Shown here in pieces: positions 12,719-49,489 of a stretch of 64,000 bases of DNA. This DNA is from Hyalangium versicolor (GTDB taxonomy: Bacteria > Myxococcota > Myxococcia > Myxococcales > Myxococcaceae): the NCBI RefSeq assembly GCF_020103695.1, contig NZ_JAHXBF010000001.1, positions 558,001 to 622,000 of the forward strand, read 5' to 3'. How positions within the stretch are numbered: position 1 is the first letter of the stretch; each line of letters opens with the position of its first letter. Both the position numbers and the translations under genes were made by a program. The notes below the pieces were generated by a model. The model saw only the letters and a program-made list of their open reading frames with translations. It was not told the DNA's origin and made no database searches.

Positions 12719-12720
12719 GG

Positions 12721-31762: not shown

Positions 31763-31766
31763 GCAA

Positions 31767-33017
31767 TCAGACGAGTGCCTCGAGTGCATCCGGGTGCCCG
31801 AGGAACCCACGAGGGCTGGCGGACCGGCCGTATGCACCCGATTGGAGAACGACGACGAGGTCCCCCTCGGTCGCGGTGGCGAGTTGGGCCTTGTCGGCCA
31901 GCAGGTCGAGCGGGGTGCACAGCGGACCGACGACGCTCGCTACCTCCGTTGGTCCCTGTCTCCCATTGATCGCGACAGGGTAGTTCTTGCGGATCACCTG
32001 ACCGAAGTTGCCGGAGGCGGCGAGGTGATGGTGCATTCCCCCGTCCGTCACGAGGAACACCTGCCCCCGCGAGACCTTCCGCTCGATCACGCGGCACACG
32101 TAGAGGCCCGCCTCGCCCACCAGGTAGCGTCCGAGCTCGATGACGACTTCCATCTCCGGACGCTGCGCGCGGGCGTGCTCGGCGAGCGTGTTCAGGTGCT
32201 CGATCACGGCGTGCACCTCCAGCGGCTTGTCGCTCGGCGTATAGGGGATGCCGAATCCACCGCCCAGGTTGAGGGAGCGCAGCGGTACGTTCAGCTTCTC
32301 CGCCCAGTGAAGCGCGAGCTCGCAGCTTCGCGATTGCGCCTCGATGATGGCATCCGCACGGAGATTCTGCGACCCAGCGAACAGGTGGAACCCCTCGAAG
32401 TCGAGCCCGGCGTGTTTGATCTCCCCGATGAGCTCTGGCAACAGCTCGGCGTCGACGCCGAATTGTTGCGCGCCTCCACTCATCTTCATGCCTGAAGCGC
32501 GGAGCGTGAACGGCAGGTTCACCCTGACGGAAACCCTCGCAGGCTGGCCCGTTGAGTCGGAGATCTCCGCCAGGAGCCGCACATCGCGAAACGACTCGAC
32601 GTTGATGAGGATGCCAGCCGCGTGCGCCTGCTTCAGCTCTCGCTCGCTCTTACCGGGGCCGGCGAAGCTGATGTGCTTGGGGGACTTGCCGGTGTCGAGC
32701 GCGACACGCAGCTCTCCCGCCGATGCCACGTCCAATCCATCCGCCAGCCCCGCGAAGTGGCAGACCAGGGCGGGCATCGGATTGGCTTTGATGGCGTAGT
32801 GGATCCGCACAATGGGAGAGAGTGCACGTCTGAGCCCCTGGACGCGCTCGGTGATCCGCCGCCGATCATAGAGGTAACAGGGGGTGCCGCCCACCGCGTC
32901 GACCACTTGCGACAGGGGTTGTCCACCGACGAGGAACTCACCTGTTTCGTTCCGTGGCCAGCCACTCCAGGTGCCGCTCTCGTGGGGCTCGAGCCATGCT
33001 GCTTCAGCTGCTTCCAT
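31767..33017 (-). CDS. PLP-dependent decarboxylase, fold III (BtrK/DAP-decarboxylase-like)
   Basis: This 416-residue protein has HYAIKANP near residue 74, which carries the PLP lysine, plus LDVASAGEL, NLGGGFGIPY, and GPLCTPLD near 365 with the active-site Cys. These mark the alanine-racemase-fold decarboxylases (diaminopimelate and ornithine decarboxylases). The closest relatives I recall are the exosortase-associated decarboxylases and butirosin BtrK, which decarboxylates a glutamyl group held on an ACP. An ATP-grasp enzyme and an ACP in the same operon fit the BtrK reading. The start is the ATG after AAAGGA. A longer open frame continues upstream to 33623, but it overlaps the ligase gene and is not coding-like. 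It is the last gene of the long minus-strand operon. Confidence 0.88.
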   Translation of the reverse strand: MEAAEAAWLEPHESGTWSGWPRNETGEFLVGGQPLSQVVDAVGGTPCYLYDRRRITERVQGLRRALSPIVRIHYAIKANPMPALVCHFAGLADGLDVASAGELRVALDTGKSPKHISFAGPGKSERELKQAHAAGILINVESFRDVRLLAEISDSTGQPARVSVRVNLPFTLRASGMKMSGGAQQFGVDAELLPELIGEIKHAGLDFEGFHLFAGSQNLRADAIIEAQSRSCELALHWAEKLNVPLRSLNLGGGFGIPYTPSDKPLEVHAVIEHLNTLAEHARAQRPEMEVVIELGRYLVGEAGLYVCRVIERKVSRGQVFLVTDGGMHHHLAASGNFGQVIRKNYPVAINGRQGPTEVASVVGPLCTPLDLLADKAQLATATEGDLVVVLQSGAYGRSASPRGFLGHPDALEALV

Positions 33018-33039
33018 TTCCTTTCTCCCTGAGCATGCG

Positions 33040-34629
33040 TCAATGAGTCTCTTCGCCGATGAGCTCCCGCTGGAGCTTCTTGCGATCAATCTTGCCGTTC
33101 CCATTGCGAGGCAGGCTCTCGTCGCGAACCTCGACATGGTGGGGAACCATGTAGGGAGGCAGCATCTTCTGCAGCGCGCGCAGGAGGCCATCGGCGCTGA
33201 ACTCGGAGGGCGTCCTGGGCAGGAGGAGCACGGCGATGCGATGCCCGAGGCGCTCGTCGGGAAGGCCGACCGCGGCAGCCTCGGCCACGAGCCCGGTCGA
33301 ATAGATCGCCTCCTCGATCTCAACGGGGCTGATCCGGTATCCCGACGACTTGAGCATCTCGTCGTTCCGCCCGATGAAGTAGAGGAAGCCCTCCTCGTCC
33401 ATTTGCACGCTATCTCCGGAGAACACGGCGATCTCGGGCAGCACGAGCCCGTTGAGGCTCCTCGGGAGCAGGCGGAACCGCTCGGCGGTCCGCTGGGAGT
33501 CCTTCCAATAGCCAAGGGCGACGGTGGAGCCGCGGTGAACGAGTTCGCCCGGTTCGTTCGGCGCGCAGGGGGTGCCATCCGGACGCAACACCAACAACTC
33601 CTGATTGGGAATGGCGCGTCCAATCGAATCGGGACGACGGTCGACCTCTTCCGGAGGCAGGTAGCTGGAACGAAACGCCTCGGTCAGTCCATACATGAGG
33701 TATGGCTTTGCCGAGGGGACACGCGCCCGCAGCCGGGCGAGTGTCTCACGAGGCATCTTTCCACCGGTATTGGCGAAGTAGCGCAGGTGCTCGTTGATCT
33801 CCCGGGGCCACTCGAGCTCGGAGAGCTGGACGTAGAGCGGCGGTACGGCGGTAAGGCCCGTGATGCGCTCGCGAGCCAACGTCTTCAGGACCTCCGTGGG
33901 CATCGTGTAGTCCAGGAGGACGGCGCGGCCCCCCGCATAGAACGTCGTCGTCAGCTGCGAGAACCCGGCGTCGAAGGAGAGAGGGAGCACCGCCAGCAGC
34001 CGGTCGTCGGCGCGATTCTCGAGATAGCTCGCAACGCTCGCCGCTCCGGACACAAGGTTGCGGTGGCTGATCACCACCCCCTTCGGTTTCCCGGTGCTCC
34101 CCGAGGTGTAGAGGATCGCGGCCATGTCGATGTCGGCGAGCCGGACCGGCGCGGGTGCCCCGGTGGAGATGAACTCCTCCCACGTGTGGAGGGCATACCG
34201 TGTTTCCTCTTCGGCCAGCGGACAGCTCTCCGAGGTCAGCACGACCATCCGCAGCATCGGGCAGCGCGAGAGTGTGTCGCGGAGCGACAGGTAACGCTCC
34301 CGGGACGTGAACAGGATCTCCACGTCTCCATCGAGGAGGATGTGCTCGACCTGCAGGGACTTGAGGACGGGGTTGATCGGAACGAAGCAGCAGCCGGCTT
34401 TCGTGGCCCCGAACGCGGCCGCGACTGCTTCGTGCGACTTCGAGAGATAGATCCCGACGCGCGCAAAGCGCTCCAGCCCGGCGGCTTTCAGCCCGCCCGC
34501 GACGCGGTCCTGAAGCGTGGCCAGCTGCGCGTACGTGAGCATGTGCCCCTTGCTCCTCAAGCTCTGGGCGGTGGGGGCTCGCTCAGCGGCGCGATCGATC
34601 AGGTGGTGGAGGAGGTATGGGGCGGTCAT
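33040..34629 (-). CDS. AMP-forming acyl/aminoacyl ligase
   Basis: This 529-residue ANL-family enzyme has LYTSGSTGKPKGV (P-loop), YGLTEAFRSS, the hinge region FSGDSVQMDEEGFLYFIGRND, and a C-terminal NGNGKIDRKKL with the catalytic lysine. It resembles the AMP ligases that accompany fold-III decarboxylases in exosortase loci; there is no exosortase here. It could activate an acid as CoA or ACP thioester for the two acyl-CoA dehydrogenase homologues encoded just upstream. The substrate is not readable. It lies 22 nt before the decarboxylase and 24 nt after the dehydrogenase-like gene, all on one strand. Confidence 0.92.
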   Translation of the reverse strand: MTAPYLLHHLIDRAAERAPTAQSLRSKGHMLTYAQLATLQDRVAGGLKAAGLERFARVGIYLSKSHEAVAAAFGATKAGCCFVPINPVLKSLQVEHILLDGDVEILFTSRERYLSLRDTLSRCPMLRMVVLTSESCPLAEEETRYALHTWEEFISTGAPAPVRLADIDMAAILYTSGSTGKPKGVVISHRNLVSGAASVASYLENRADDRLLAVLPLSFDAGFSQLTTTFYAGGRAVLLDYTMPTEVLKTLARERITGLTAVPPLYVQLSELEWPREINEHLRYFANTGGKMPRETLARLRARVPSAKPYLMYGLTEAFRSSYLPPEEVDRRPDSIGRAIPNQELLVLRPDGTPCAPNEPGELVHRGSTVALGYWKDSQRTAERFRLLPRSLNGLVLPEIAVFSGDSVQMDEEGFLYFIGRNDEMLKSSGYRISPVEIEEAIYSTGLVAEAAAVGLPDERLGHRIAVLLLPRTPSEFSADGLLRALQKMLPPYMVPHHVEVRDESLPRNGNGKIDRKKLQRELIGEETH

Positions 34630-34653
34630 CGATACACCTCGGAAGCATTGGGC

Positions 34654-35673
34654 TCAGCAAGGGGCGGCTGTCATCAAGGCGCCCGCTTTCACTGCGTTGA
34701 TCATGACAGTGAGGGTCCGGACCTGTTCGAACAGCCGCCGGAAGGGCAGGCCCTCGACATATCCGTGCCCCGCAGCGGTCTGCACTGCGTCGCGCGCGAT
34801 CCGGAAGGAGAGGTCGCCGACGTGGCCGACGCTGAACTCCGCGATGCCTCCCTTCATCCCGGGCGGTTCGCACTGCTCGATGCTCGCGGTCAGATAGAGC
34901 GAGAGCGCTTCCTGGTTCAACGCCAGATCCGCAAGGCGCACGGCGACGGCCTGGTGCTGAGTGATGGGCTTCCCAGCGGACTGCCGCGTTCTGGCATAGG
35001 CATACGCCTCATCGACGAGCCGCCGCGTCGCTCCGACGATCAGCCCGCACAGAAGGGCCATCTGCGCGCGGACGTAGGTATCCCAGGCTCCCGCCGCCAG
35101 TGGCCTCATGCCGATGTCGCTACGAGTGACTCCTGGCTGGAGCGAACAGGTGAGCACCTCGCCGAAGGGAAAGCCGAGCAGGCCGCCCTTCCGTGAGCAG
35201 GTGAGCCCAGACACGCAGATCCCCCTGCTGACAGGAACAGCCAGGGTCGGTCCGTTCGGGTCGAAGAGGGCGATCGTCGGTGGACAGGCCGGATCGACCA
35301 TGGGCTGCCACGACGTCCACTGCGTAGCGCTGGCGTTCGGAATGGCGACGAGATCCGCCAATGGAGGAAGCTCCGCGGCCCTGGCCGGTGCACTGGACAG
35401 TCCTCGCCATGCAGCCGGCAGGTTGGCGTGTCCGAGCAGCTCGGCCATGTGGAAGAGCAGCACCGGCACGTCTTCGCGGCTCTCGAGTTCGGGCAGCACG
35501 CTCTCGAGTTCGAGTTCCCGCACGAGCGCGACCGCCGCCCACAGGTGTGCGCGCTCTGTCGAGGAAAGATCGCGGATGGCGCTGGCGACGGCTCGGGCCG
35601 CGCTCACATAGGGTTCGGCGACCGGCGAACACCGGAAATCGATCGGAGCAGAAGGATCTTCATGAGGAGTCAT
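34654..35673 (-). CDS. Divergent acyl-CoA dehydrogenase-like protein
   Basis: This 339-residue protein has recognisable acyl-CoA dehydrogenase helices in its C-terminal half: KPITQHQAVAVRLADLALNQ, then RDAVQTAAGHGYVEGLPFRRLFEQ. The N-terminal half is poorly conserved. The segment that normally carries the catalytic Glu in the EGT motif is missing; the protein ends soon after FEQVRTL. It may be a non-catalytic or altered partner of the intact dehydrogenase encoded next to it (35751-36932), as in heteromeric dehydrogenases; this is inference. I chose ATG 35673 because GGAG lies just upstream; ATG at 35694 is the alternative. Confidence 0.8.
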   Translation of the reverse strand: MTPHEDPSAPIDFRCSPVAEPYVSAARAVASAIRDLSSTERAHLWAAVALVRELELESVLPELESREDVPVLLFHMAELLGHANLPAAWRGLSSAPARAAELPPLADLVAIPNASATQWTSWQPMVDPACPPTIALFDPNGPTLAVPVSRGICVSGLTCSRKGGLLGFPFGEVLTCSLQPGVTRSDIGMRPLAAGAWDTYVRAQMALLCGLIVGATRRLVDEAYAYARTRQSAGKPITQHQAVAVRLADLALNQEALSLYLTASIEQCEPPGMKGGIAEFSVGHVGDLSFRIARDAVQTAAGHGYVEGLPFRRLFEQVRTLTVMINAVKAGALMTAAPC

Positions 35674-35750
35674 GGATGTCTCCGTGAATGGCATTGATCG
35701 AATGCCGGAGTGGGGAACGGAGGGTGGGGAGTCCCGCGTGCCCGGGGTGC

Positions 35751-36932
35751 TCAGTGCAAGTATGCCCTGGCGATCATCAGGCGCTGCATGTCACCGGTTC
35801 CCTCCAGGATGTCGAAGGCCTTGGCATCGCGATAGAACTGTTCGATCCGGTCCCCCACCGTGACGGCCTTGGCCGGGAATAGCGTCGACAGCCGGTGTGC
35901 CAGCTCCATGGAGACGGTGGACGCGAACGCCTTGGCCAGCGACGCATCGGTCGAAGCGTGTTGCCCCGCGTCGAACTTCCATGCGGCACGGAGCGCCAGG
36001 AGCTGCGATGAGCAGATCCGGGCACGGAACATGTTGAGCTCTTCGCGTGCCTGCTCGGTCGTGGTGCGTGACAGCTCCGCCTCGCCGCTGTCGAGGCATC
36101 GCTCGGCATGGTCCACCATGCCGAGGCAGCCGCCGTTGATGAGCGAGGAGAGCACGGGTCGCATGTAGTCCCACGCGGCCTGCGCGCCCGTGAAGGCGTC
36201 CATCAGGGGGCCACGTTTGCCGGTGTGCCCCAGCATGTTCGTCGCTGGCACCCGGCAGTCGGAGAAGGAGAGGGACGCGAGCTGGCTCGCCCTGAGCCCC
36301 ATCATGTCCTCGCAGCGGTCCACCGAGAACCCTGGCGTGTCGCGCGGCACGACGAACGCGCGAATGGCGAAGCGCCCCTTGCTCGGGTCGATCGAGGCGA
36401 ACACGACGACGACGTCCGCCCTTCCTCCGCTGGTGATGAAGCACTTGGTACCGTTGAGCACGTAGTCATCCCCGGCGCGTGTGGCCACCGTGCGCATGGC
36501 GGCGGCATCCGAGCCGCCCTGGGGTTCGGTGATGGCAAAGGCTCCCCACACCGGCCTCGTCTGCCCGAGGAACCGCTGGAAGTAGGCGACCTTCTGTTCT
36601 TCCGTTCCCAGCGCGAGCACAGGCGGGCACGACAGCCCTGGGCCGGGCAGGCCGATCGGAAGTGCTGGGCAGATGCGTCCGATGCGCTCGAAGACCACCG
36701 CCCGCCGGACAGCCGTCGACGTGAGCGCGATGCCACCATACGAGACGGGCATGTTCACGCGGTTCAGCAGGTCGACGGGCATCAGCGACCAGAGCTCGCT
36801 CGGGATGTCCGCCTCCGCATCGGCTCGTGCAGCGAGCGGAGCCAGGTGCGTCTCCAAGGCTTCGAAGAGCTGCCAGGTCTCCGGATCCGCGCGGCGGCTC
36901 TCCCTCAGCACCTCGTCGGGGTCGACCCTCAC
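35751..36932 (-). CDS. Acyl-CoA dehydrogenase
   Basis: This 393-residue flavoprotein has FAITEPQGGSDAAAMRT (FAD and substrate loop), GTKCFITSGGRAD, and the C-terminal DILEGTGDMQRLMIAR with the catalytic Glu. It should dehydrogenate the alpha-beta bond of an acyl thioester. Carrier-bound aminoacyl substrates are known for related pathway enzymes such as prolyl-PCP oxidases, and the ACP in this operon makes that possible. The start is a GTG whose last bases overlap the upstream pentapeptide-gene stop (GTGA), with GGGAG upstream. An open frame continues farther upstream, but it overlaps the pentapeptide gene. Confidence 0.92.
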   Translation of the reverse strand: MRVDPDEVLRESRRADPETWQLFEALETHLAPLAARADAEADIPSELWSLMPVDLLNRVNMPVSYGGIALTSTAVRRAVVFERIGRICPALPIGLPGPGLSCPPVLALGTEEQKVAYFQRFLGQTRPVWGAFAITEPQGGSDAAAMRTVATRAGDDYVLNGTKCFITSGGRADVVVVFASIDPSKGRFAIRAFVVPRDTPGFSVDRCEDMMGLRASQLASLSFSDCRVPATNMLGHTGKRGPLMDAFTGAQAAWDYMRPVLSSLINGGCLGMVDHAERCLDSGEAELSRTTTEQAREELNMFRARICSSQLLALRAAWKFDAGQHASTDASLAKAFASTVSMELAHRLSTLFPAKAVTVGDRIEQFYRDAKAFDILEGTGDMQRLMIARAYLH

Positions 36933-37231
36933 GGCGAGTCTCCCTTCCCGGAGTCCCGTTGCGCGGCCTGGTAGGTGTCGAGCAGGAGCTTCACATCGAT
37001 GCCCTCGATGGTCATGCCCTCGTACTCGCAGTTGCTGATGCTCACGCCAATGAAGCTGGCCCGGGTGAAGGAGCTCCCGTCGAGGAGGACATCCTTGAAG
37101 CTCGACTGGGCGAGCGAGACCTCCGAGAACGTGCTGCCAGCCAGACGCACGTCGTCGAACTTGCTGCACGCGAGGTCGGAATCAGTGGCTTCGATCTTGT
37201 GGATGACGTCGTTGAGGTTGATCGTACTCAT
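36929..37231 (-). CDS. Small pentapeptide-repeat-like protein
   Basis: This 100-residue protein has repeating five-residue units with Phe or Leu at every fifth position (CSKFDDVRLAGSTFSEVSLA, then QSSFKDVLLDGSSFTRASFI). They predict about two turns of a right-handed quadrilateral beta-helix. Pentapeptide proteins include DNA-gyrase protectors and scaffold proteins, and also immunity proteins. This one is short and lies directly after the MATE exporter gene (1 nt gap) and overlaps the dehydrogenase start, so a self-resistance or scaffolding role in the pathway is plausible but not shown. Confidence 0.75.
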   Translation of the reverse strand: MSTINLNDVIHKIEATDSDLACSKFDDVRLAGSTFSEVSLAQSSFKDVLLDGSSFTRASFIGVSISNCEYEGMTIEGIDVKLLLDTYQAAQRDSGKGDSP

Positions 37232-37232
37232 G

Positions 37233-38669
37233 TCAGGTTCTCCTCTCCTGTGAATGAAGAGCCGTCAGTTGTCTTGAGAAGGGCGTCGCCAGGTTCGGGC
37301 GGAGCTCGCTGTAGCAGCGCCGCGTCACCGCCACGGCGGTGACGCCAAACCCGATGAGCAGTCCCCACCAGACACCGCGCACGCCGTGGCCGAGCACCGG
37401 GCCCAGGAGGAACTGGCTGCCTGCGGCGATCACGCAGTACCCCAGGAAGGATTGCATGAGCGGGGCTCGGGTCTGGCCCACGCCGCGAAGGATCGCCGCG
37501 CCGATGATGATGAGGCCTTGGATGGTGAGCAGGATGCCGCCCGGGAGCATGAGCTGTCGGAGAAGCGTCTGCGCCTCGGGCGCGAAGGCGGCCTTGCCGA
37601 GAAACACCGCCCCGAGCTGCACGGGAATCGCCGCGAACACCGCGATGACCAGCACTCCGAACACGGCGCCGAGCATCAACGACACCACCGCGACCCGGTT
37701 GCGATTGATCACATCTCCCTTCGAGTGCAGCACGGCGATCCGTTGCACGGCGGCGTGCCCGAGGCCGACGGGGACGACCTGACACAAACTCACCCACAGC
37801 AACACGATCGAGTGCACGGGGATCGCGGACGTCCAGTAGCGTCCGATGATGAGCGAGCTGATCAGTGGGGCGAGGCTGTCGAGGAGGATGACGACGCCGA
37901 TCGGCCAGCCCACCGAAGCGACGATCGCGCTCGCCGCTCGCAGCTTCGCCTTCACCTCGGTGAGGGTGCCGGGACGGGGCCGCAGATCGGGGAAGGCGCG
38001 CAGTGACAAGGCAGCGAGCAGCAGCATCAGCCAGTTCGAGGCGGAGACGCTGAGCAGGACCCTCACGGCCGTACTCCCCAACACGGCTGGCCACAGGCCT
38101 GTGGTGGCGGTGGCGATGATGGCCGCGCTCGCGGCACCGGTCGCATACACCAGCGTCACGATGCCGGGCTTTTCCCGCAGTGACGCGTGGACGCGGTACA
38201 CAGCCATCCAGAGCGCGGGAATGATACCGATGGCGGCCACCGCACCCTGCGGAGGTGCCAGCGCTACGACGTCCGAGTTCATCCCGAGCATTCTCAAGAT
38301 GGCGCCAATGGCGAAGCTGAGCATCATCGAGCCCACTCCGAGCGCAAGCGCCAACAGGAGCCCGGCGACGATGGCCGCGTCGTACGCGCTCTGATCCTTG
38401 CGCCCGAGCGCCTGCCCCGCGACGAAGTAGAGCGCCTGCAAGCTGCCAGAGGCGGCGAGGAAGATGGTCAGATTGACGGACGTCACCAGCGAGTAGCTGG
38501 AGAAGGTCATCGCGGCCTCTTTCGCGACGAGGCTCGCGACGTAGAGGCTCGCGAGCAGCGGAGCCACCTGGGTCGCGACCGTCTTCATCGCGAGCACGGA
38601 GAGAGCCCAGACGACAGCGGAGGTACCTCTGGGAGCGGCCCGCGTCTCCTGTAGCGAGGATGCCTTCAT
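37233..38669 (-). CDS. MATE-family exporter
   Basis: This 478-residue polytopic membrane protein has about twelve hydrophobic segments and the two-bundle layout of MATE transporters. Typical pieces are YSLVTSVNLTIFLAASGS in the first bundle, PIGVVILLDSLAPL at the start of the second, and GHAAVQRIAVLHSKGD. MATE proteins expel drugs or metabolites with proton or sodium exchange, so this is the likely inner-membrane exporter or self-protection pump of the operon. The start is ATG 38669, which overlaps the upstream stop by ATGA with AAGGA upstream; a longer open frame to 38741 overlaps the thiolase-like gene. Confidence 0.88.
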   Translation of the reverse strand: MKASSLQETRAAPRGTSAVVWALSVLAMKTVATQVAPLLASLYVASLVAKEAAMTFSSYSLVTSVNLTIFLAASGSLQALYFVAGQALGRKDQSAYDAAIVAGLLLALALGVGSMMLSFAIGAILRMLGMNSDVVALAPPQGAVAAIGIIPALWMAVYRVHASLREKPGIVTLVYATGAASAAIIATATTGLWPAVLGSTAVRVLLSVSASNWLMLLLAALSLRAFPDLRPRPGTLTEVKAKLRAASAIVASVGWPIGVVILLDSLAPLISSLIIGRYWTSAIPVHSIVLLWVSLCQVVPVGLGHAAVQRIAVLHSKGDVINRNRVAVVSLMLGAVFGVLVIAVFAAIPVQLGAVFLGKAAFAPEAQTLLRQLMLPGGILLTIQGLIIIGAAILRGVGQTRAPLMQSFLGYCVIAAGSQFLLGPVLGHGVRGVWWGLLIGFGVTAVAVTRRCYSELRPNLATPFSRQLTALHSQERRT

Positions 38670-39817
38670 CTCTGTGCTTCCTTTCCGCTCACGGAACACC
38701 AGAGCTGGGCGCCCACCGATCCGCCGTACGACATTCCCCACGAGAGAAACGATCCGTCATTCCTCACGCGGCCCGTTCTCACACCGTCGGAGAGCTCCGC
38801 GAGCAGCGCGGGTGCGGCGGCCGCGCACCAATAGCCATCGTCCTCGCGAGGCGCGAAGACAGGAGCCCGCACGCCGAGGCGCTCCCTGAGCCGGAGGTCC
38901 ACGTCGGGGTGCAGGCCGGAAGAGATCCAGCCCGACAGGCCCATCGGGGTTACGCCATGTTCGCGCAGACAGTCCGCGATCACAGACTCCGCCGCGTCGA
39001 GCATGGCGGGGGTGTCGAGCGTCAGAGACCGTCGCGCGCGCGGGGCGGGTGTCTTGTTCGCGCCCGTGCTGTCGCCTCGCAATGGCGGGAGACCTCGAAC
39101 CTCGAACGACGGCAGGGGCCGCACCTCGAGCGGCGGCTCGCGGATGAACGGATTGAAGCTGCGAACTGTCCCGCCCACGTAGCGCAGGCCGGGCTGCTCC
39201 TCACGCGTGAACCAGGCGGCGACAGCGCCATCGCCGAGCACCGTGGATGAGTCCCAGCGTCGAGGGAACGCGACGGGCCACCGCTCAGCGGCGATGAAGA
39301 GGGCGCCGCGGCCAGGCTTCGTCAGCATCGAATCGATGATGTCCACCGCGCCCGGCAGCGAAGCCCCCTGGAGCTGGGACACCGCGAAGTGTGGCACGTG
39401 GGAGAGGCCCACCGTTCCCACGATCCCGCCGATCATCGAATGGAAGATGCCACTCTCATCGAGCGACGTTGCGGAGCACACGACGAGCTCACATCGCGCG
39501 GCCAACTCCTTCATCGGGAGCACTTCGGCGAGCGCGGCGACCGCCTGACCAGCCAGCTCCGCCTGCGTGCGCGTGCGGGAGATGCGGAACCGTAGCCCCT
39601 CCGGGGGCGCGGTCATTTCAGCCCCCAGCCCGCACAGCTCTCGCGAGTCATGACCGATCTGTGCGTGGAGGAACTCCGCGATGCCGCGCTCCAGCGAGAC
39701 TTCTGTCGTGGCGTACTCGGCGGTGACCGCGGCGGTCCAACCCGGCAGGTCGAGGAAGTCTGGTGGTCTCGCGACCCGGGCCCAGGCGAGGGTCAGTGGA
39801 GCTTCAGCGGCGTTCAT
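38666..39817 (-). CDS. Thiolase-fold protein lacking the catalytic Cys (KAS III-like, degenerate)
   Basis: This 383-residue protein has the order of a ketosynthase III or chain-length-factor-like fold: CELVVCSATSLDESGIFH, then HFAVSQLQGASLPGAVDII, then FIAAERW and a second half with LDAAESVIADCLREHGVTP. In the nucleophile segment the expected Cys is Ala (QLQGASLPGAV). It is therefore unlikely to condense by the usual acyl-enzyme route and may be a structural partner of an active homologue or a modified acyltransferase. The ATG at 39817 overlaps the end of the ACP gene by 14 nt. It is one of four thiolase-fold genes in this operon. Confidence 0.72.
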   Translation of the reverse strand: MNAAEAPLTLAWARVARPPDFLDLPGWTAAVTAEYATTEVSLERGIAEFLHAQIGHDSRELCGLGAEMTAPPEGLRFRISRTRTQAELAGQAVAALAEVLPMKELAARCELVVCSATSLDESGIFHSMIGGIVGTVGLSHVPHFAVSQLQGASLPGAVDIIDSMLTKPGRGALFIAAERWPVAFPRRWDSSTVLGDGAVAAWFTREEQPGLRYVGGTVRSFNPFIREPPLEVRPLPSFEVRGLPPLRGDSTGANKTPAPRARRSLTLDTPAMLDAAESVIADCLREHGVTPMGLSGWISSGLHPDVDLRLRERLGVRAPVFAPREDDGYWCAAAAPALLAELSDGVRTGRVRNDGSFLSWGMSYGGSVGAQLWCSVSGKEAQR

Positions 39818-40091: not shown

Positions 40092-40151
40092 GGTGTTCAT
40101 CCCCACGTTGATGGTTGCTGTTTTGCGCCCTTGCGCGGCTTCAGCGAAGGA

Positions 40152-42447: not shown

Positions 42448-43451
42448 GGGGAGTCCTCCCTTCGAGGCGCCAGGGCCATGCTCCGAGGCCCGTGGAGAAT
42501 GGGAAGCAAGGTCACCACCGTGTAGGCGCCCACGTTCGACTGCCCGCAGGAGGCGACCGCTTGCCCCTGGTCCAGGAGCGCGAAGCCCCGGTCCACCAGA
42601 TTCACCGCGAAGTCCGCGGAGCACGCGTGCCCCCGCATGCGGATGTTCTCGAGGAAGAAGGCACTCTCGGGCAGGTCGAGCGCATGGGCGATCTGAACCC
42701 AATAGTGGCGGTCAGCGTTGATTGGCATGAGCTGGCCGTACTGGCGCAGGGGAATGCCGGTGGCCTGACTGTGCTCGGCGAAGAGCAGCTTCGTATGCAG
42801 CCAGGTGTAGCGCGCGATCATCGAGATCGTCTTGGGATCGCTGGGGCCTTCGTGCAGCCCTGCGAAGTTCTTGTAGCTGATGCTCGCCAGGCGGCAGCGC
42901 ATGTTCTCCTTCGAGAGGAGGATGGCCGTCGCGCCATCGCTCTGGAGGCCTGCGTTCTGCCGGATGCGGTGCTTCGCATTGCCGAAGACACGGTCCGAGG
43001 TGACGACCAGGGCATACCGGGCATCACCATCCTCGGCGAGCAGGCGCGCGGCCCGATCGACGGCGGCGACCACCCCCGCGCACCCGATGTGCTCGATCGA
43101 GAAACACAGCTGCGGGGCAAGGTCATACCGCTGGAGGATCTCCGTGAGGAGCGAGCTGGGGGGCGGCGGCATGCTGAAGGCCTGGGTGTGCGCGTGGACG
43201 AGGTAGCGGACCTCGGAGAGGAGAGCTCCGTGCCGCGCCACGAGCGTGTCGATCGCTCCGAAGATGAGCTCCGCGTCGGAGTGCTCGGACCCTTCGTAGA
43301 AATAGCGGCACCCATGCGCGAGCAGTTCCTCCACCAACTGCGGCGAGACCTTCTGAGAGGCCGCCCATTCCACGATGTCGACAGCGGGTCCTGGGAGGTT
43401 GTACGCGGCATCCGCGATCCCGACCTCGTGATGTGTGGAGTGTTCAGCCAT
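42438..43451 (-). CDS. Ketosynthase III-like enzyme with catalytic Cys
   Basis: This 337-residue thiolase-fold protein keeps the nucleophile Cys in SIEHIGCAGVVAAVDRAARL. Upstream it has YLVHAHTQAFSMPPPP. In the C-terminal half, the segment equivalent to the FabH His motif reads LMPINADRHYW (Ile at the usual His place), and the Asn segment reads RGHACSADFAVNL (His in place of Asn). The residue set differs from a standard FabH, so it may be an acyltransferase or a specialised condensing enzyme. It overlaps the GNAT gene by 8 nt and the Cys-less homologue by 10 nt. Confidence 0.83.
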   Translation of the reverse strand: MAEHSTHHEVGIADAAYNLPGPAVDIVEWAASQKVSPQLVEELLAHGCRYFYEGSEHSDAELIFGAIDTLVARHGALLSEVRYLVHAHTQAFSMPPPPSSLLTEILQRYDLAPQLCFSIEHIGCAGVVAAVDRAARLLAEDGDARYALVVTSDRVFGNAKHRIRQNAGLQSDGATAILLSKENMRCRLASISYKNFAGLHEGPSDPKTISMIARYTWLHTKLLFAEHSQATGIPLRQYGQLMPINADRHYWVQIAHALDLPESAFFLENIRMRGHACSADFAVNLVDRGFALLDQGQAVASCGQSNVGAYTVVTLLPILHGPRSMALAPRREDSPCV

Positions 43452-44094
43452 GGGTGACCTCCAGTCCTCCGTCGTCGGGCAGCGTCCTCATGAAGTGGGT
43501 GCGGAACGTCCGCCCCTGCTCTGAGGGGACATCTGGGTAGAGCTGCCCGAACTCGGCGAGCGTCATGTCGTAGAGCCAGCGGTCATGGCGACGGCCATCG
43601 ATCACGTGCCGCGAGCGCTGGGTGCCCGAGTGGCGCATGCCAATGATGTCGTGCAGGTAGATTGACGCGCGATTCGACGCCACCACCCAGGTGGTGGCGA
43701 TCTGCCTCCCAAAATCCAGGAACCCCGTGGCCAGGATGCGGGCGCCGGCGCTCGTGACACTGTTGCGGATGGGGCGCATCACCGAGAGATCCCGAACGAT
43801 CCACACATCCATCGAGCCCATCAGGTCATCGATGTTGTTCATGCAGACGAGTCCCAGCGGCCGGCTGTCGCCAGGAAGTTGGAACAAGCGCGCGCACACG
43901 TGGGAGTTGCTCAGCATCAGATAGAGCTGGCGCTTCGACAAATCCTGTCGGCCACCTCCGAAATCCAGCCAGCAGCGCACCTGGGGTGGGTTCATCCATT
44001 CCCAGACCATGTCGAGGTGCTGCGGGCCGAATGGGAGGAGTTCGACTCTCGGCCACGTCGTGCCCGGCAACCTCGGCAGTTCATTGATTCTCAT
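43444..44094 (-). CDS. GNAT-family N-acetyltransferase
   Basis: This 216-residue protein resembles the RimJ/RimL-like branch of GNAT acyltransferases: VELLPFGPQHLDMVWEWMN at the start, LGLVCMNNIDDLMGSMDVWI for the central beta-strands, then a helix-strand pair with TTWVVASNRASIYLHDIIGM and RHDRWLYDMTL. The acetyl-CoA pyrophosphate loop is weakly conserved. It could acylate an amine formed by the decarboxylase in the same operon or protect the host from a toxic amine; both are inference. Its ATG overlaps the stop of the preceding ketosynthase III gene (ATGA), and its end overlaps the next. Confidence 0.75.
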   Translation of the reverse strand: MRINELPRLPGTTWPRVELLPFGPQHLDMVWEWMNPPQVRCWLDFGGGRQDLSKRQLYLMLSNSHVCARLFQLPGDSRPLGLVCMNNIDDLMGSMDVWIVRDLSVMRPIRNSVTSAGARILATGFLDFGRQIATTWVVASNRASIYLHDIIGMRHSGTQRSRHVIDGRRHDRWLYDMTLAEFGQLYPDVPSEQGRTFRTHFMRTLPDDGGLEVTHG

Positions 44095-45041
44095 GGGGTC
44101 TTCTCGGGATGCAGGGGTGGAGTCGTCGCTGTGTTCAGGATGAAGCCGCCGAAGCAGCCGCCGATGCCGCTCGAGAACACCAGGTGGTACCCAGGACTGC
44201 TCAAAGCACCGGAGTCAGCGATGTTGATGGCGACATCCGAGCCGAAGGCGTGGCCCACCCGCGCGAAGTTGTCGTGGAAGAGGCGCTCCTCGGGGATGGC
44301 CAGCGACGCCAGCACCTGGTGCCACGCCTGCAGGTTTACGTTGTGCGGGAGGATGGTGGACAGGTCTCCTGGCGCGATCCCCGCCGCCCTGAGCACGCGC
44401 CGTATCACGGAGACCAGCGTCCAGACGTAGTGGGGGCTCGTTCCGTAGAGCGTGTCCGGCATGACGCCTTGCACCGCGCGCGGGTCGTTGTACGTCTGCA
44501 GGCCGTGAACGCGTCCGGGAGCGTTCCTCTGGAGGAGCACGGCCGAAGCCGCATCCGAGTGGACGCCGGAGTCGCCGATCAGGCGGTAGTTCTCTCGGAT
44601 GATCGTGTCGAGGGTGACGATCACAGCGGAGCGCCACGCGCGGTGCCGGGTGAAGAGCGCATCCAAGACACGCAGCGCGTGCAGCGATGAGACGCATTGC
44701 TGCTGGGTGATGCCCAGCGCGTAGGCGTGAGCCAGCCCGCAGGCCCGCCGCAGCGCGCCCGCCAGGGTGTACGGCATGGGCAGGGCGCTCAGGGGTGAGG
44801 TGTGGCAGATGACCAGCGCGTCGAGTTCATCCGCCGCGACGGCACCCGTCTCGAGGACCTTGGAGATGGCCTCGCTCCCCAGCGCGATGAGCCCCTCCTC
44901 CTGTGCCCGGTGGAAGCGGGCGGCACCGTTGCGCGACAGGGCCTGGAGCCGATCCTCGGCGAGCGCTTGGGCGGTGCACCACTCGCTGACTGTGCATGAC
45001 GTTTTCGCCAGGACATAGGCTGTTGAAGCAATACCCATCAT
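44091..45041 (-). CDS. Ketosynthase III-like enzyme with Cys and His
   Basis: This 316-residue thiolase-fold protein has the nucleophile Cys in GITQQQCVSSLHALRVL and a His motif ILPHNVNLQAWHQVL that matches the FabH PHQAN block. The third catalytic position, normally Asn, lies in VGHAFGSDVAINIAD and is His. N-terminal features (LDALVICHTSP) are normal. Of the four thiolase-fold proteins here it is the one most likely to catalyse condensation or acyl transfer. It is the first biosynthetic gene after the transport genes, 33 nt downstream of the beta-barrel gene. Either of two adjacent ATGs at 45041 could start it. Confidence 0.85.
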   Translation of the reverse strand: MMGIASTAYVLAKTSCTVSEWCTAQALAEDRLQALSRNGAARFHRAQEEGLIALGSEAISKVLETGAVAADELDALVICHTSPLSALPMPYTLAGALRRACGLAHAYALGITQQQCVSSLHALRVLDALFTRHRAWRSAVIVTLDTIIRENYRLIGDSGVHSDAASAVLLQRNAPGRVHGLQTYNDPRAVQGVMPDTLYGTSPHYVWTLVSVIRRVLRAAGIAPGDLSTILPHNVNLQAWHQVLASLAIPEERLFHDNFARVGHAFGSDVAINIADSGALSSPGYHLVFSSGIGGCFGGFILNTATTPPLHPEKTP

Positions 45042-45074
45042 CTCACATCCCCAGACCGCTCTGCGGTGCTGGTC

Positions 45075-46511
45075 TCAGTAGCGCTTGCTCACGAACAGGT
45101 CGAATCGGAGAGCAGTCGGCGACGATCCATACTGGCTGTCTGGCCCGCCAAAGAATTGCAAGAATTGCCCACCCACCGACCAGTCATTTTTCAAATGCCA
45201 CGTGACCATCTGTTGCGTGAGCCCGCTCCAGTCGATGTTGTTGACTTGAACGAAGCTCGAGAGATCCAGTCCCCGGACAGCAAAGGCATCTCGCCACCCG
45301 GCGCGAGCAAAGGACCCATGTTTCAGGAGCGGCTCGGACTCGAAGGCTCGCCGATCGCTCATGTCCAACAGAGTCAGCTGCTTTTCGTTTGTGATGCCTC
45401 GCCACTGGCGCCAGGCCTCCGCACCGAGCGCATCACTGGCGAATTGCTGCTCCACCGTCAGCTCAATGCCGACAGGCGTCGTCCACGTCAGGTTGGCGGC
45501 TATCCGGTTGCACCAGGTGTATCCGGGCACCGGTTCGTCGGGTCCTCCGAGCGGTCGGCAGCCACCGACCGCCCAGTCGACGTTGAACACGAGGGCTTGC
45601 CCGAGCAGGAGCGACAGATCGAGGCCGAGCTTCGGCCGCTCGCTTTCGCGGGCGAGGAAGAGCACATCCACGGAGAGCCATTCCCGGATCTGGGGGGCCC
45701 ACTTGGCGTAGAGGGCGCCCTGGCTGTTCGTCCGATTCAGCCCTGGCGAATACCACGGTCCGATCTCCATCGGGTCCTGGCTGCTCAGCGGGGGCACCAG
45801 CGCGAGGGTATAGGCGCCGCTCTCGTGGATGTACTGAATCATTGCCACCACGGTGCCCAGCCGGTTCAACCGGAAGGCGTTTGGATCCAGCAGGAGCGGT
45901 TGGCGAACCGCTCCCTCCTTGAAGAAGTCCGTGGGGCTGTAACCACTGCCCACTCCGTTGCGGATGTTGATGCGCCCCACATCCAGGTAGAGGGGCCGTT
46001 CCTCGCTCCCCGCCTGCCAGCGGACCCACAACTCGCGCGGGTTGTTCAAAGCGCCGGAGTACGAGGAGGCATCCTGGGTTCGCAGGAGATCGAGCGCGCC
46101 CTGCCACTGGTTCGAGAACCCCAAGGTCCATCTCTTCCCCAGCGACCACTCATGGCGGAAGTCGAGGACCAGACGCCCGACATCCGCGTGAGCCCCGTGC
46201 TCCTGAGCCGGAGGGGGGCGCTCGTAGATGTGCTGCAGCCAGAGTTGGAACTCCAGGCCCCAGGAGGTATCGCCCTCCTCGGGGACGGCCTTGTCTTGCG
46301 CTTCGACCTGGTCCGGGTCGAGGCCCGGGGGCAGCTCGGGAGGGGCCTCGGCTCCAGGTGGCTCCCCAGAGAGGGGCGGTGCTTGCGATGCAGGGGCTGC
46401 GCGAGACACGTCCTCTGCCCAGCCGGGGGCGGCCGACGCGAAGATCGCCAGACCGGCCAGCGCGATCGGCGAGCGCGTTCGCCGCGCCAGGATCCTCGTG
46501 GCGCTGTGCAT
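45075..46511 (-). CDS. Outer-membrane beta-barrel protein
   Basis: This 478-residue protein has a signal peptide (SPIALAGLAIFASAAPGWA, cleavage near residue 32) and a Pro-rich linker. About 380 residues of alternating aromatic and polar strands follow (LEFQLWLQHIYERP, GALYAKWAPQIREWLSVDVL). It ends in DLFVSKRY, an aromatic terminal residue as expected for outer-membrane barrels. I do not recognise a specific family. Its position between the LolA-like gene and the ketosynthase genes suggests it is the outer-membrane part of an export or lipid-placement route. ATG 46511 has AGGGAG upstream. Confidence 0.8.
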   Translation of the reverse strand: MHSATRILARRTRSPIALAGLAIFASAAPGWAEDVSRAAPASQAPPLSGEPPGAEAPPELPPGLDPDQVEAQDKAVPEEGDTSWGLEFQLWLQHIYERPPPAQEHGAHADVGRLVLDFRHEWSLGKRWTLGFSNQWQGALDLLRTQDASSYSGALNNPRELWVRWQAGSEERPLYLDVGRINIRNGVGSGYSPTDFFKEGAVRQPLLLDPNAFRLNRLGTVVAMIQYIHESGAYTLALVPPLSSQDPMEIGPWYSPGLNRTNSQGALYAKWAPQIREWLSVDVLFLARESERPKLGLDLSLLLGQALVFNVDWAVGGCRPLGGPDEPVPGYTWCNRIAANLTWTTPVGIELTVEQQFASDALGAEAWRQWRGITNEKQLTLLDMSDRRAFESEPLLKHGSFARAGWRDAFAVRGLDLSSFVQVNNIDWSGLTQQMVTWHLKNDWSVGGQFLQFFGGPDSQYGSSPTALRFDLFVSKRY

Positions 46512-46522
46512 GGCTCGACTCC

Positions 46523-47359
46523 CTAGGTCTCGCCACGGAAGTGCGGCAGATAGTCACGCTGGAGCCAGGTCTTGGGGATCTCTCGCGACTGGAACTTCGA
46601 CGCCCGGATGACGGTGATCCATGCCGGGTCGAGCCCATCGATGATGACGGTTTCGGTCGGGCGCTCACGGCCCAGGATGGTTTGGAACTTCCGGAAGTAC
46701 GCAGTCTTCAGCAGCCGGCCTTCGCTGGTGAAGAACTGCGCCTTGAGGGGGCGGCCGTTCTCCTCGTCTACCCAGTAGTCGACCATCGAATAGGGTGCGT
46801 CGTTGCGCTGCGAGACGAGGTGCAGCTTGACGCTGGGCCGCTGCTGCTTCGCTTCATCTTCAATCGGCTCGTGCCCGACGATGCTGGCGGTGTAGACCTT
46901 CGCCAGATTCGTGCTCATCACGTCACCGTTCGAGGCTTGCCCAAGGAGGCGCGCCTGCGGCGAGATGCGGATGCTCGCCTTGCTGGCGGGGTCGAAGAAC
47001 CAGACTTCCATCCCGTTGCGCAGGATGAGCTTGCCGGCATCGCGGCGCGGGCTGACGAAGCGGATGAGATTGTTGTACTGCGCGGACTCGGGAACGAGCT
47101 TCGAATAGACGACCAGCGTCGAGGAGTCGACCAGCTTGCCCGAGCGATACTCCGCAAGGGTGGTGGTGACCGAGAAATCGCCGTCCGGATTGCGCATGCT
47201 GTCGGCGCGCACCAGCAGCGCTTGCGCATCCTCGGCCGCCTGTGCAGGCGCCGCGAGCGAGACGACACAGGCCAGCGCCAGGGCGAGGGGTCCTACGCGA
47301 AGGCGCCGGGAATGACGGGCGAGCGTGTTCGCGAAGTCAGACGGGGTGAACTCATACAT
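46523..47359 (-). CDS. LolA-like outer membrane lipoprotein-sorting protein
   Basis: This 278-residue periplasmic protein has an N-terminal signal (VGPLALALACVVSLAAPAQA) and the half-barrel pattern of the LolA-like family: MRNPDGDFSVTTTLAEYRSG, LILRNGMEVWFFDP, SIVGHEPIEDE, and a C-terminal block with PLKAQFFTSEGRLLKTAYF and FQSREIPKTWL. Members of this family occur next to MMPL or FtsX-type transporters and carry hydrophobic cargo across the periplasm. It overlaps the permease gene by 8 nt and lies 11 nt before the beta-barrel gene. It would link the ABC transporter to the outer membrane. Confidence 0.87.
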   Translation of the reverse strand: MYEFTPSDFANTLARHSRRLRVGPLALALACVVSLAAPAQAAEDAQALLVRADSMRNPDGDFSVTTTLAEYRSGKLVDSSTLVVYSKLVPESAQYNNLIRFVSPRRDAGKLILRNGMEVWFFDPASKASIRISPQARLLGQASNGDVMSTNLAKVYTASIVGHEPIEDEAKQQRPSVKLHLVSQRNDAPYSMVDYWVDEENGRPLKAQFFTSEGRLLKTAYFRKFQTILGRERPTETVIIDGLDPAWITVIRASKFQSREIPKTWLQRDYLPHFRGET

Positions 47360-48740
47360 GTTGTAGCGCCTCCGTTACTTCCATTCGAGCGGCTCGGTTC
47401 GCGGGCCACAGCGCTGACAGGCAGGCCACCGCCGAGAGTCCAAGCACCGTCGCGGCAATCATCGAGGGACTGCCAAGCACGTCGATGCGCAGGGGAATGC
47501 TGGTCGAGCGGCCAGGGGGCGTCCATGCGAAGCCGCTCAGATCGAGGCCATACTGGAAGAGGAGTGCCAGCACTGCGCCAACGATGGTGCCGAACACCCC
47601 CAGGAGCGCGCCCTCGAGGATGAAGATCGAGCGGATGGAGGTGCGTTGGAACCCCAAGGAGCGAAGCGTGCCAATCTCGCCGATGCGCTCGCCCACGGCC
47701 ATGTTGACTGCATTGGCGATCGAGAAGAGCGCGATGAGGCCCATGAGGGCAGCGATGAATGTGAAGACGGACGTGTAGCTGGAGACGATCTGGTCGTATA
47801 CAGGGCTCACCTCGTGGAAGGTCAGCACCTCCAACTGGCCCGACTCCTTGACGAGCTGGTTCAGCCGGGCCTGCGCCGCTGGCAGCATGTCGCTGTGCCG
47901 CAGCTGGATGACGACTGCCGAGACGGCGCGCTCGTCCGGGCCGAACACGAGTCGCTGCGCGAGCGGTAGGGGCATGGCGACGTAGAGCGCGTCGATGTCA
48001 CGGACGACCTGGCGCTCTGCCTCGAGCACGTTCATTCGCACGACGTTCGGGAGTCCGCTGGGGGATGCGGCCAGGAGTTCGATGGACGCCGCCTTGCCTG
48101 TCCCAGCCTGCTGCGATTGCTCGGCCTGCCCGAGTGCGGAGATGTCTTCCGGGAGCGTGGCGGCCTTTGGATCCGCGACCGTCCGCGTGGGCAGCTCCTT
48201 GCAGCCCGTCAGCTTCAAAGGGCCGCAGAGGGCGAGCAGCTGTGCCATCTGGAAGCCGACGATGCCGCCATCCGGTGCGTCAGCCCTCAGCGCCGTCTTG
48301 CCTGGCGGAATCCCCGCACCGAATCCGTCCCATGCGAGCATCTTCGCATGCCCCGAGGGCTCCACGCCGATACCCGAGAAGTTGCTGGAGGCGCCCGCGG
48401 CGAAGTTCCCTGCTGCGCCCTCGACCTGGAGCACGGGGGTGACGACCGCGAGCATCGGAGCGAGCACTTCGTCGGTCTGGATCCTGCGCATCAGCGCTTC
48501 GTAATCGCGAATCGAGAAGCGTCCCGGGTCGCCTCGGCCAAAGTCCAGGTAGTCCTTGCGAACGACCTGCAGATGGCCGACTTGGCGCACCGTGATGGTC
48601 TGGAGCCCATGGATGTTGTCGTTGACGTAGCCCCCGAACACCAGGATGGCGAGGGTTCCAACGACCAACGCCACCGCGGTGAGCGCTGAGCGCCGAGCGT
48701 TGCGCAGCACGTTGCGCGAGGCGAGTGCGATGACGTTCAT
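47352..48740 (-). CDS. ABC transporter permease, LolC/LolE (FtsX) type
   Basis: This 462-residue protein has the FtsX-family layout: one N-terminal membrane helix (SALTAVALVVGTLAILVFGG), a large periplasmic domain of about 280 residues, and three C-terminal helices. The central membrane stretch FTFIAALMGLIALFSIANAV is followed by the GERIGEIGTLRSLGFQRTSI signature. Such permeases mechanically extract lipoproteins or other hydrophobic molecules rather than pumping through a channel. It overlaps the ATPase stop by 4 nt and is co-transcribed with a LolA-like chaperone. The cargo could be a product of the operon or a lipoprotein. Confidence 0.92.
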   Translation of the reverse strand: MNVIALASRNVLRNARRSALTAVALVVGTLAILVFGGYVNDNIHGLQTITVRQVGHLQVVRKDYLDFGRGDPGRFSIRDYEALMRRIQTDEVLAPMLAVVTPVLQVEGAAGNFAAGASSNFSGIGVEPSGHAKMLAWDGFGAGIPPGKTALRADAPDGGIVGFQMAQLLALCGPLKLTGCKELPTRTVADPKAATLPEDISALGQAEQSQQAGTGKAASIELLAASPSGLPNVVRMNVLEAERQVVRDIDALYVAMPLPLAQRLVFGPDERAVSAVVIQLRHSDMLPAAQARLNQLVKESGQLEVLTFHEVSPVYDQIVSSYTSVFTFIAALMGLIALFSIANAVNMAVGERIGEIGTLRSLGFQRTSIRSIFILEGALLGVFGTIVGAVLALLFQYGLDLSGFAWTPPGRSTSIPLRIDVLGSPSMIAATVLGLSAVACLSALWPANRAARMEVTEALQHV

Positions 48741-49489
48741 GGCTCACTCCGGGCGGACAGGGCGGGGGAGTGTCGCCGAGCACCATCGACCACCCGGCCG
48801 TCTTCGATGCGAAGCCACTCATCCGCGTCTTCGATCATCTGCGGGTCATGCGAGGAGAGGATGAAGGTGGTGTGGTGCTCGCGTTGCATGGTGCGCATCA
48901 GGGCCATCAGCTCCGCGCCTGTGCGGCGATCCAGATTGGCGGTGGGTTCGTCCGCGAGGACCAACGCTGGCCGCTTGACCATCGCGCGTGCAACGGCCAC
49001 GCGCTGGCGCTGTCCCCCCGAGAGTTCCGCGGGGCGCCGATGCAGCATCGGTCCCAATCCGACGGCCTCGAGCATCTCCTGGGCGCGCGCACGGCGCTCG
49101 GTGGCGTCGCGGATGGTGAGCCGCAGTGGATATTCCACGTTCTCCAGCGCGGTCAGCACTGGCACCAGGTTGAAGTTCTGGAACACGAAACCGATGTGTC
49201 TTGCGCGGAACGCGGTGCGCTTCTTGTCGCTCAGGGCCGCGACATCCTGGCCGGCGATCTCGACATGCCCGGTTGTTGGCAGGTCCAAGGCTCCGAGCAG
49301 GTGGAGGCCTGTACTCTTGCCGCTGCCCGAAGGGCCGCAGAGCACGGTGTATGAACCAACGGAGACCGCGAGGTCGATACCGCGAAGCGCTTGGACGGTG
49401 GTGTTGCCGAGACGATATTCCTTCGTCACATGCTCGAGCCGCGCGGCGAAACCGTCATTTGAAAGAAATGGATGGTCCACAGGTTGCAC
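48737..49489 (-). CDS. ABC transporter ATPase, LolD/MacB type
   Basis: This 250-residue ATPase has Walker A (GPSGSGKST), Q-loop (FVFQNFNLVPVLTALEN), ABC signature (LSGGQRQRVAVARAM), Walker B (ALVLADEPTANLD) and the switch His (FILSSHDPQMI). The sequence between them is typical of the LolD/MacB group. The start is GTG 49489; there is no ATG upstream in frame. It is the promoter-proximal gene of the 17-gene minus-strand run ending at 31767, so the upstream gap 49490-49829 should contain the operon promoter. Confidence 0.95.
   Translation of the reverse strand: MQPVDHPFLSNDGFAARLEHVTKEYRLGNTTVQALRGIDLAVSVGSYTVLCGPSGSGKSTGLHLLGALDLPTTGHVEIAGQDVAALSDKKRTAFRARHIGFVFQNFNLVPVLTALENVEYPLRLTIRDATERRARAQEMLEAVGLGPMLHRRPAELSGGQRQRVAVARAMVKRPALVLADEPTANLDRRTGAELMALMRTMQREHHTTFILSSHDPQMIEDADEWLRIEDGRVVDGARRHSPALSARSEP

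Follow-up and report, generated by a model that had tools for sequence, protein, structure and literature searches.

What is made by a bacterial operon that joins an AMP ligase, a stand-alone acyl carrier protein (ACP) and a pyridoxal phosphate (PLP) decarboxylase with four homologues of beta-ketoacyl-ACP synthases (KAS) and an exporter resembling the Lol system? This question is raised by Hyalangium versicolor (Myxococcota), in which 17 such genes occupy positions 31767-49489 of a 64,000-nucleotide stretch (G000:C13:558001-622000, hereafter the window) of a 13.56-Mb genome assembled in 101 contigs. Our analysis points to an operon that is related to the Burkholderia afc cluster and would assemble a short aspartate-derived beta-amino-acid oligopeptide on one carrier without condensation domains and hand it to an exporter that crosses the envelope. 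Based on sequence comparison and on analogy with afc, we assign a probability of approximately 60% to this reading.

Seventeen genes in one operon

All 17 reading frames were confirmed on the minus strand. They encode, in this order, a LolD-like ATPase, a LolC/FtsX-like permease, a LolA-like carrier, a beta-barrel, KAS-A, a GNAT-like protein, KAS-B, KAS-C, an ATP-grasp ligase, the ACP and KAS-D, followed by a MATE-family transporter, a pentapeptide-repeat protein, two acyl-CoA dehydrogenase homologues (ACAD1 and ACAD2), the AMP ligase and the decarboxylase. The original prediction of a 17-gene operon, in which junctions overlap or span less than 60 nucleotides, was borne out: 9 of the 16 junctions overlap by 4-14 nucleotides, and the other 7 have gaps of 1-56 nucleotides. 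Internal promoters and terminators were named in that prediction as features that would split the set. A consensus scan of positions 31000-50300 revealed no sigma-70-like promoter, where myxobacterial promoters may differ from the consensus, and the five terminator-like sites of this region (one on the operon strand) are no more than shuffled sequence gives (mean, 7.2). The 17 genes are one real operon.

Family scans (Pfam for 16 of the 17 proteins, NCBIfam only for the pentapeptide protein) agreed with the gene list initially proposed, except that the match of the GNAT-like protein is weak and that the beta-barrel, KAS-C and KAS-D have no Pfam match. AlphaFold models and Foldseek searches back the beta-barrel assignment and a KAS III fold for KAS-D, and a profile match to AfcR of the afc cluster backs KAS-C. 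Contaminating DNA was rejected as the source of the operon, which lies on a contig of 975,606 bases beside a SitA5-type gene; the contamination estimate of the genome is 6.92.

Conservation and distribution of the operon

A search with KAS-B, scored for the 7,992 candidates with the most words in common, retrieved 58 proteins including itself, and 27 of these were aligned. Scanning the pattern derived from this alignment against one genome per species (84,980 species) yielded eight loci. A 13-gene core, from KAS-A to the decarboxylase, is collinear in six of them, which belong to two phyla, Myxococcota and Pseudomonadota. It is complete in Myxococcus dinghuensis (L006), a gammaproteobacterial metagenome-assembled genome (MAG; L008), a Burkholderiales MAG (L009) and a Rubrivivax MAG (L012), and comprises 12 genes in Piscinibacter defluvii (L011) and 11 in a Pseudomonadota MAG (L010). 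Diverged partial sets were observed in a Rhodanobacter MAG (L007, beside a transposase) and in Nguyenibacter (L013/L014). The collinearity in six other loci rules out chance neighbours and, along with the ACP, the TIGR03098 ligase and the BtrK-like decarboxylase, upholds the earlier proposal of one unit for a carrier-bound molecule. Co-conservation without the nearby nonribosomal peptide synthetase/polyketide synthase (NRPS/PKS) line, a check suggested at the outset, was also seen: among 17 flanking window proteins compared with the relatives' loci, only the NRPS/PKS frames match, through shared adenylation, ketosynthase and reductase folds. This line (8057-26368, minus strand), composed of large frames with ketosynthase-like and adenylation-like stretches, lies outside the conserved unit.

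Named KAS-B homologues include proteins from Hyalangium minutum, Myxococcus, Piscinibacter, Rhodopila and Tahibacter. None of 97 relatives carries a KAS-B ortholog, which was found in the window's own genome only among the 98; two other genomes gave 44.8 and 45.7 bits, as compared to 763 bits. The operon is thus patchy in its distribution and was probably acquired by transfer. In the midpoint-rooted ligase tree, the operon ligases form a clade of 7 rows (100/99) that is proteobacterial except for the two myxobacterial rows nested in it, a placement that suggests transfer.

Relationship with the afc cluster

The statement in the original prediction that no characterised pathway has this combination of genes did not hold, given that the afc cluster has ligase, carrier, decarboxylase, KAS-like and Lol-like genes in common with the operon. 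A KAS-B search of plasmid records returned three Burkholderia records, of which those of B. cenocepacia CMCC(B)23006 (L024) and B. arboris (L025) show 34% identity. Both regions contain homologues of LolD, LolC, LolA, the ACP, KAS-B and KAS-C, along with a PLP decarboxylase and an AMP ligase, in a gene order that fits the lettered afc genes; the records have no gene annotation, and the afc names used here were assigned by order and by homology to the published list. The AfcQ homologue occupies two reading frames in B. cenocepacia (L024:20127-21667) and one in B. arboris.

As described in the afc study (PMC12186527), AfcQ activates L-aspartate, at the side chain by the authors' logic, loads it onto AfcK and iterates by adding further aspartate to the amine of the carrier-bound residue, and AfcP decarboxylates to beta-alanine. 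According to the same study, AfcL is a KAS III-like acyltransferase that binds chains of beta-alanine in thioester linkage and transfers (beta-Ala)3 to lysyl-CoA, AfcR has a Thr/His/Glu triad, and AfcI is an outer-membrane channel (PMC12186527). The main text of that study makes no mention of exosortase, ATP-grasp or LolA (PMC12186527).

The operon and afc share a TIGR03098 ligase, a stand-alone ACP, a decarboxylase of the diaminopimelate decarboxylase fold, Cys-bearing and Thr-bearing KAS III-like proteins, LolD/LolC/LolA homologues and an outer-membrane protein, and both lack condensation domains. No such domain of modular NRPSs was found by Pfam in the 16 operon proteins, or by NCBIfam alone in the pentapeptide protein. 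In contrast, the operon proteins scanned include no fatty-acyl-AMP ligase (FAAL; AfcA), citrate synthase (AfcS), O-methyltransferase (AfcT), fatty-acid desaturase or PF12806-type dehydrogenase, and the TIGR03098 ligase is the only AMP-binding protein among them. The operon instead has the ATP-grasp ligase, the GNAT-like, MATE and pentapeptide proteins, ACAD1/ACAD2 and a second AfcR-like protein, and the barrels of the two systems are only weakly alike (8 bits). The operon was hence rejected as an AFC-BC11 cluster proper, as FAAL, citrate synthase and methyltransferase are missing. Citrate synthase and PF12806 are present in B. arboris L025. In Nguyenibacter, a bridging cluster carries operon-type genes for KAS-B, KAS-C, the ATP-grasp, pentapeptide and GNAT-like proteins, LolD/C/A and the barrel. 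Its other genes encode an ABC-2 exporter, an AurF-like oxygenase, a TIGR03098 ligase and, as in L025, a PF12806-type dehydrogenase.

Predicted activation and decarboxylation of an amino acid

The AMP ligase (33040..34629, minus strand, as are all operon genes) scores 726.8 bits with TIGR03098 (cut-off, 592.35), as compared to 630.8 bits for AfcQ of B. arboris, with which it shares 46% identity, and 634.2 bits for the Nguyenibacter ligase. Its Arg320 (EAFR) and Lys513 (NGK) correspond to Arg311 and Lys503 of AfcQ, with a constant two-residue offset in the B. arboris frame, and equivalents are present in 28 of 28 ligase rows, five of which are the same gene recovered a second time because loci overlap. 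The pocket motif, read from aligned columns, starts with FDA (FDAG) in the ligases of the window, the operon relatives, AfcQ and Nguyenibacter. By homology with AfcQ, the enzyme is predicted to activate L-aspartate at its side chain.

The decarboxylase (31767..33017) exceeds the TIGR03099 cut-off (563.5 versus 478.45 bits), and its best solved structure is BtrK (7.7e-75), named glutamyl-[BtrI ACP] decarboxylase in the PDB. Lys77, Cys367 and Asp371 are kept wherever the alignment covers them, and the enzyme is predicted to act on an aminoacyl-ACP. The operon encodes one stand-alone, AfcK-like ACP (39804..40106; PF00550) with a conserved Ser54. The ATP-grasp protein (40152..41366; PF13535) is of the L-amino-acid-ligase type, its closest solved relatives being L-amino acid ligases (PDB 3vot, 6.5e-11). 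A second ATP-grasp homologue (43%) lies downstream of the operon in the gammaproteobacterial MAG (L021:3886-5109).

The butirosin set consists of BtrJ (ATP-grasp), BtrI (ACP) and BtrK (decarboxylase). The operon likewise has an ATP-grasp ligase, an ACP and a BtrK-like decarboxylase and, with BtrK as the best PDB match of the latter, could operate in the same manner. A single decarboxylated amino acid, either beta-alanine or gamma-aminobutyric acid, would be made on the ACP without iteration, the ATP-grasp ligase would protect it or extend it once, and a KAS-like acyltransferase would move the unit to another molecule. We consider this scheme rather unlikely, since the ligase is of the AfcQ type, an enzyme that iterates according to the afc study (PMC12186527), and since the Cys-less KAS homologues and the Lol-like genes resemble afc. 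The operon also differs from the butirosin set by the addition of the AMP ligase, four KAS-like proteins, the dehydrogenases and an envelope exporter.

Four KAS homologues

The active-site Cys is present in KAS-A (44091..45041; PF08541; Cys116) and KAS-B (42438..43451; Cys124), and is replaced by an invariant Thr (Thr134) in KAS-C (41359..42447) and by Gly in KAS-D (38666..39817). Cys116, His233, His264 and Asp269 of the KAS III-like KAS-A are conserved in the six collinear loci. In profile searches, KAS-B and KAS-A match AfcO (288-291 and 177-181 bits, respectively), whereas KAS-C and KAS-D match AfcR (~129 and 63-75 bits, respectively). Thr134 and His281 of KAS-C are invariant in eight rows including AfcR, and the Thr fits the published Thr/His/Glu triad. 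The AlphaFold model of KAS-D (mean pLDDT, 79.2), built from seven sequences and unreliable in its details, matches FabH and PqsBC in Foldseek (best E, 5.3e-18).

The presence of FabH and PqsBC among the best Foldseek matches of KAS-D would suit a pathway in which the KAS III homologues catalyse carbon-carbon condensation of the kind found in alkylquinolone or aryl polyene synthesis, and the amino acid serves only as the starter of a polyketide or lipid. The same holds for rough, uncurated open frames that separate the Lol-like block from the core in P. defluvii (L011:1827-7754) and the Rubrivivax MAG (L012:2071-7786), and that match a short-chain reductase, a FabA-like dehydratase and ketosynthase-like proteins. 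A carrier domain is found in L011 only, and an alpha/beta hydrolase, scanned in L011, has a homologue in L012; the product of these two operons may carry a special acyl chain. For the operon of the window, carbon-carbon condensation nevertheless appears improbable. KAS-B and KAS-C match AfcO and AfcR of a peptide pathway in which, according to the afc study, AfcL is an acyltransferase (PMC12186527), and no malonyl-loading or ketoreductase family was detected among the operon proteins scanned. As to the aryl polyene clusters, they contain KAS-type and LolA-like genes near one another, together with an ammonia lyase, a reductase and a dehydratase. The operon shares the proximity of KAS-type and LolA-like genes but has an amino-acid ligase and a decarboxylase instead of the latter three families, none of which was found in it.

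Accessory enzymes and export genes

ACAD1 (35751..36932; PF02770/PF00441) has kept Glu377, which is conserved in six loci. ACAD2 (34654..35694) is a degenerate homologue reduced to the C-terminal domain, without a C-terminal EGT motif, and is likely a non-catalytic partner of ACAD1. The GNAT-like protein (43444..44094) shows a weak match to PF13523 (14.3 bits in Pfam; cut-off, 27) and a conserved WLDFGGGRQ stretch in the alignment; it has no significant profile match with the 206-amino-acid frame at the AfcM position. The short pentapeptide-repeat protein (36929..37231; 100 amino acids) has weak Qnr-family matches of ~25 bits and is kept in five of the six collinear loci.

Genes for transport are found at two places in the operon. 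The MATE-family transporter (37233..38669; PF01554) is encoded within the core, and a four-gene Lol-like block opens the operon. It comprises the LolD-like ABC ATPase (48737..49489; TIGR02211, 234.5 bits, below the cut-off of 307.75), the LolC/FtsX-like permease (47352..48740; PF02687; TIGR02212, 62.7 bits, below the cut-off), the LolA-like periplasmic carrier (46523..47359; PF17131, 108.9 bits) and the outer-membrane beta-barrel (45075..46511). LolC and LolA match the afc loci with 117-120 and 74-77 bits, respectively, and LolD matches its afc homologue as well. The barrel model, built from 15 sequences and again unreliable in its details, has a mean pLDDT of 72.6, with residues 1-106 being unreliable, and resembles OprD-family and AlgE barrels in Foldseek (best E, 1.8e-7; TM-scores of 0.38-0.56 across the best 30 rows). 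The barrel family is small (10 proteins including itself among 7,997 candidates scored), and four of the nine other members lie on contigs that match KAS-B contigs in size (540313, 11050, 20626 and 43938), the match being one of size alone. The block adjoins the core in M. dinghuensis and the Burkholderiales MAG and ends ~6 kb upstream of it in L011 and L012. In L008/L021 its place is apparently taken by downstream genes for an HlyD-like protein, a LolD homologue and two FtsX permeases (L021:5140-9470), and no Lol-like block is present in the stretches read of L010/L023. These genes suggest export of the product through the envelope.

Proposed pathway

From the gene set, its order, the homologies and the kept catalytic residues, we infer a series of reactions, a substrate, a repeated cycle and an export route. 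By analogy with afc biochemistry, the AfcQ-type ligase would activate the side-chain carboxylate of L-aspartate and load the ACP. The BtrK/AfcP-like decarboxylase would then remove the alpha-carboxylate to give beta-alanyl-ACP, the free amine of which would accept the next aspartate, so that the cycle is repeated. ACAD1, with ACAD2 as likely partner, may desaturate the beta-alanine units. Because there is no FAAL, the ATP-grasp ligase and/or the GNAT-like protein might cap or extend the chain. The Cys-bearing KAS-A and KAS-B, for which the Cys-less KAS-C and KAS-D are likely partners, would bind the chain in thioester linkage and then transfer it to an acceptor. Finally, the MATE transporter would move the product across the inner membrane, and LolD/LolC, the LolA-like carrier and the barrel would convey it toward the outer membrane.

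The exosortase-associated gene pair

TIGR03098 and TIGR03099 are both named 'exosortase A system-associated' by NCBI. We know of no role assigned to this pair, and found no account of one in the open-access literature. Membership of the operon in an exosortase system was rejected because the window's genome has no PF09721 match. PF09721 was detected in five of the nine genomes tested, the others being those of the window (0 matches), M. dinghuensis, Rhodanobacter and Nguyenibacter. In a sample of 200 genomes from the order of one exosortase-bearing genome (G101), TIGR03099 was found at E <= 1e-130 in 38; leaving G101 aside, an exosortase is present in 32 of the remaining 37, and the 5 without it are small (1.8-2.1 Mb) and show the lowest scores.

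The family names could mean that the ligase/decarboxylase pair serves an envelope polysaccharide in the operon as well. The frequent company of exosortase in the order sampled (32 of 37 genomes) would agree with such a role, as would three exosortase-bearing genomes (G100, G101 and G102) in which TIGR03098 has no match other than the operon ligase at E <= 1e-100, so that the pair may have a role beyond the operon there. Given the four genomes without PF09721, and given that the Pfam scan of 16 operon proteins found no glycosyltransferase family, this explanation is highly improbable.

The two settings of the pair are nevertheless related. The same two families score above the cut-off, the two genes are direct neighbours in L026 and L027, where their order is also the same, and the ligases of 12 exosortase-genome loci (L026, L027, L031-L038, L042 and L043) are 49-57% identical to that of the window. 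In the midpoint-rooted tree, AfcQ and the operon ligases both fall within the exosortase-genome ligases. In contrast, the operon ligases form a clade of their own (100/99), 7 of the 12 exosortase-genome ligases have FDY rather than FDA (the other 5 have FDA), the window's genome has no exosortase, and the pair is non-adjacent in some genomes (e.g., G120 and G295). In three small genomes without exosortase (L039, L040 and L041, from G241, G201 and G106, respectively), the decarboxylase is over and the ligase under its cut-off; these ligases, which have TEAFRA(S/T) motifs, stand apart on a long branch of their own.

Evidence against the proposed pathway

A number of observations, to which the three exosortase-bearing genomes with a sole strong ligase match belong, weigh against an afc-like assembly of a beta-peptide. 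The Arg of the ligase is shared by the outgroup ligases (TECKR in both L028 and L030) and by that of L007 (TESKR) and is therefore not discriminating, and the FDA pocket is shared by the long-branch ligases L039-L041. The decarboxylase and its B. arboris counterpart share only 27% identity, as determined by direct tblastn, a profile with fused frames having been set aside. In L011, no decarboxylase is present within the stretch read, and in L010, the ATP-grasp and pentapeptide genes are missing at this place. KAS-B has Ile, Val, Phe, Ala or Thr where AfcO and KAS-A have His, and no significant profile match links the operon to the frame at the AfcL position, with which KAS-A shares only the GHAFGSD stretch. 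As FAAL, AfcS, AfcT and the PF12806-type dehydrogenase are missing, afc cannot serve as a template for the last steps of the pathway. As to export, the position of the Lol-like block differs among relatives. Furthermore, deletion of the channel gene afcI left the AFC-BC11 production profile unchanged (PMC12186527), and the barrel may therefore be dispensable for production or be replaced by other channels.

Neighbouring genes

Divergent from the operon start lies a gene with a SitA5-family polymorphic toxin escort domain (49830-50687, plus strand; 198.8 bits, cut-off 160). An ArsA-type ATPase with an ArsA HSP20-like domain (29360-30580, minus strand) is encoded between the operon and the NRPS/PKS line, and a selenocysteine tRNA gene is found at 61472-61570 (minus strand). 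The Rubrivivax operon is directly followed by response regulator and sensor kinase frames (L020:3493-5646).

Biological implications

The proposed pathway would extend condensation-free, carrier-bound beta-peptide assembly, for which biochemistry comes from the Burkholderia afc cluster, to a separate operon lineage of Myxococcota and Pseudomonadota with different finishing enzymes. It also ties the characterised AfcQ to TIGR03098, a family named by its exosortase association alone, and the role of the exosortase gene pair thereby becomes testable. A broader view, which we put forward tentatively and regard as possible though doubtful, is that the operon is one lineage of condensation-free factories in two phyla that stack aspartate-derived beta-alanine or dehydro-beta-alanine on a single carrier and ship the beta-peptide via a Lol-like relay to the outer membrane, while the exosortase-A pair would run the same first two steps to supply beta-amino-acyl groups to envelope polymers. 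The operon would also offer a natural test case for whether Lol-like relays export small molecules.

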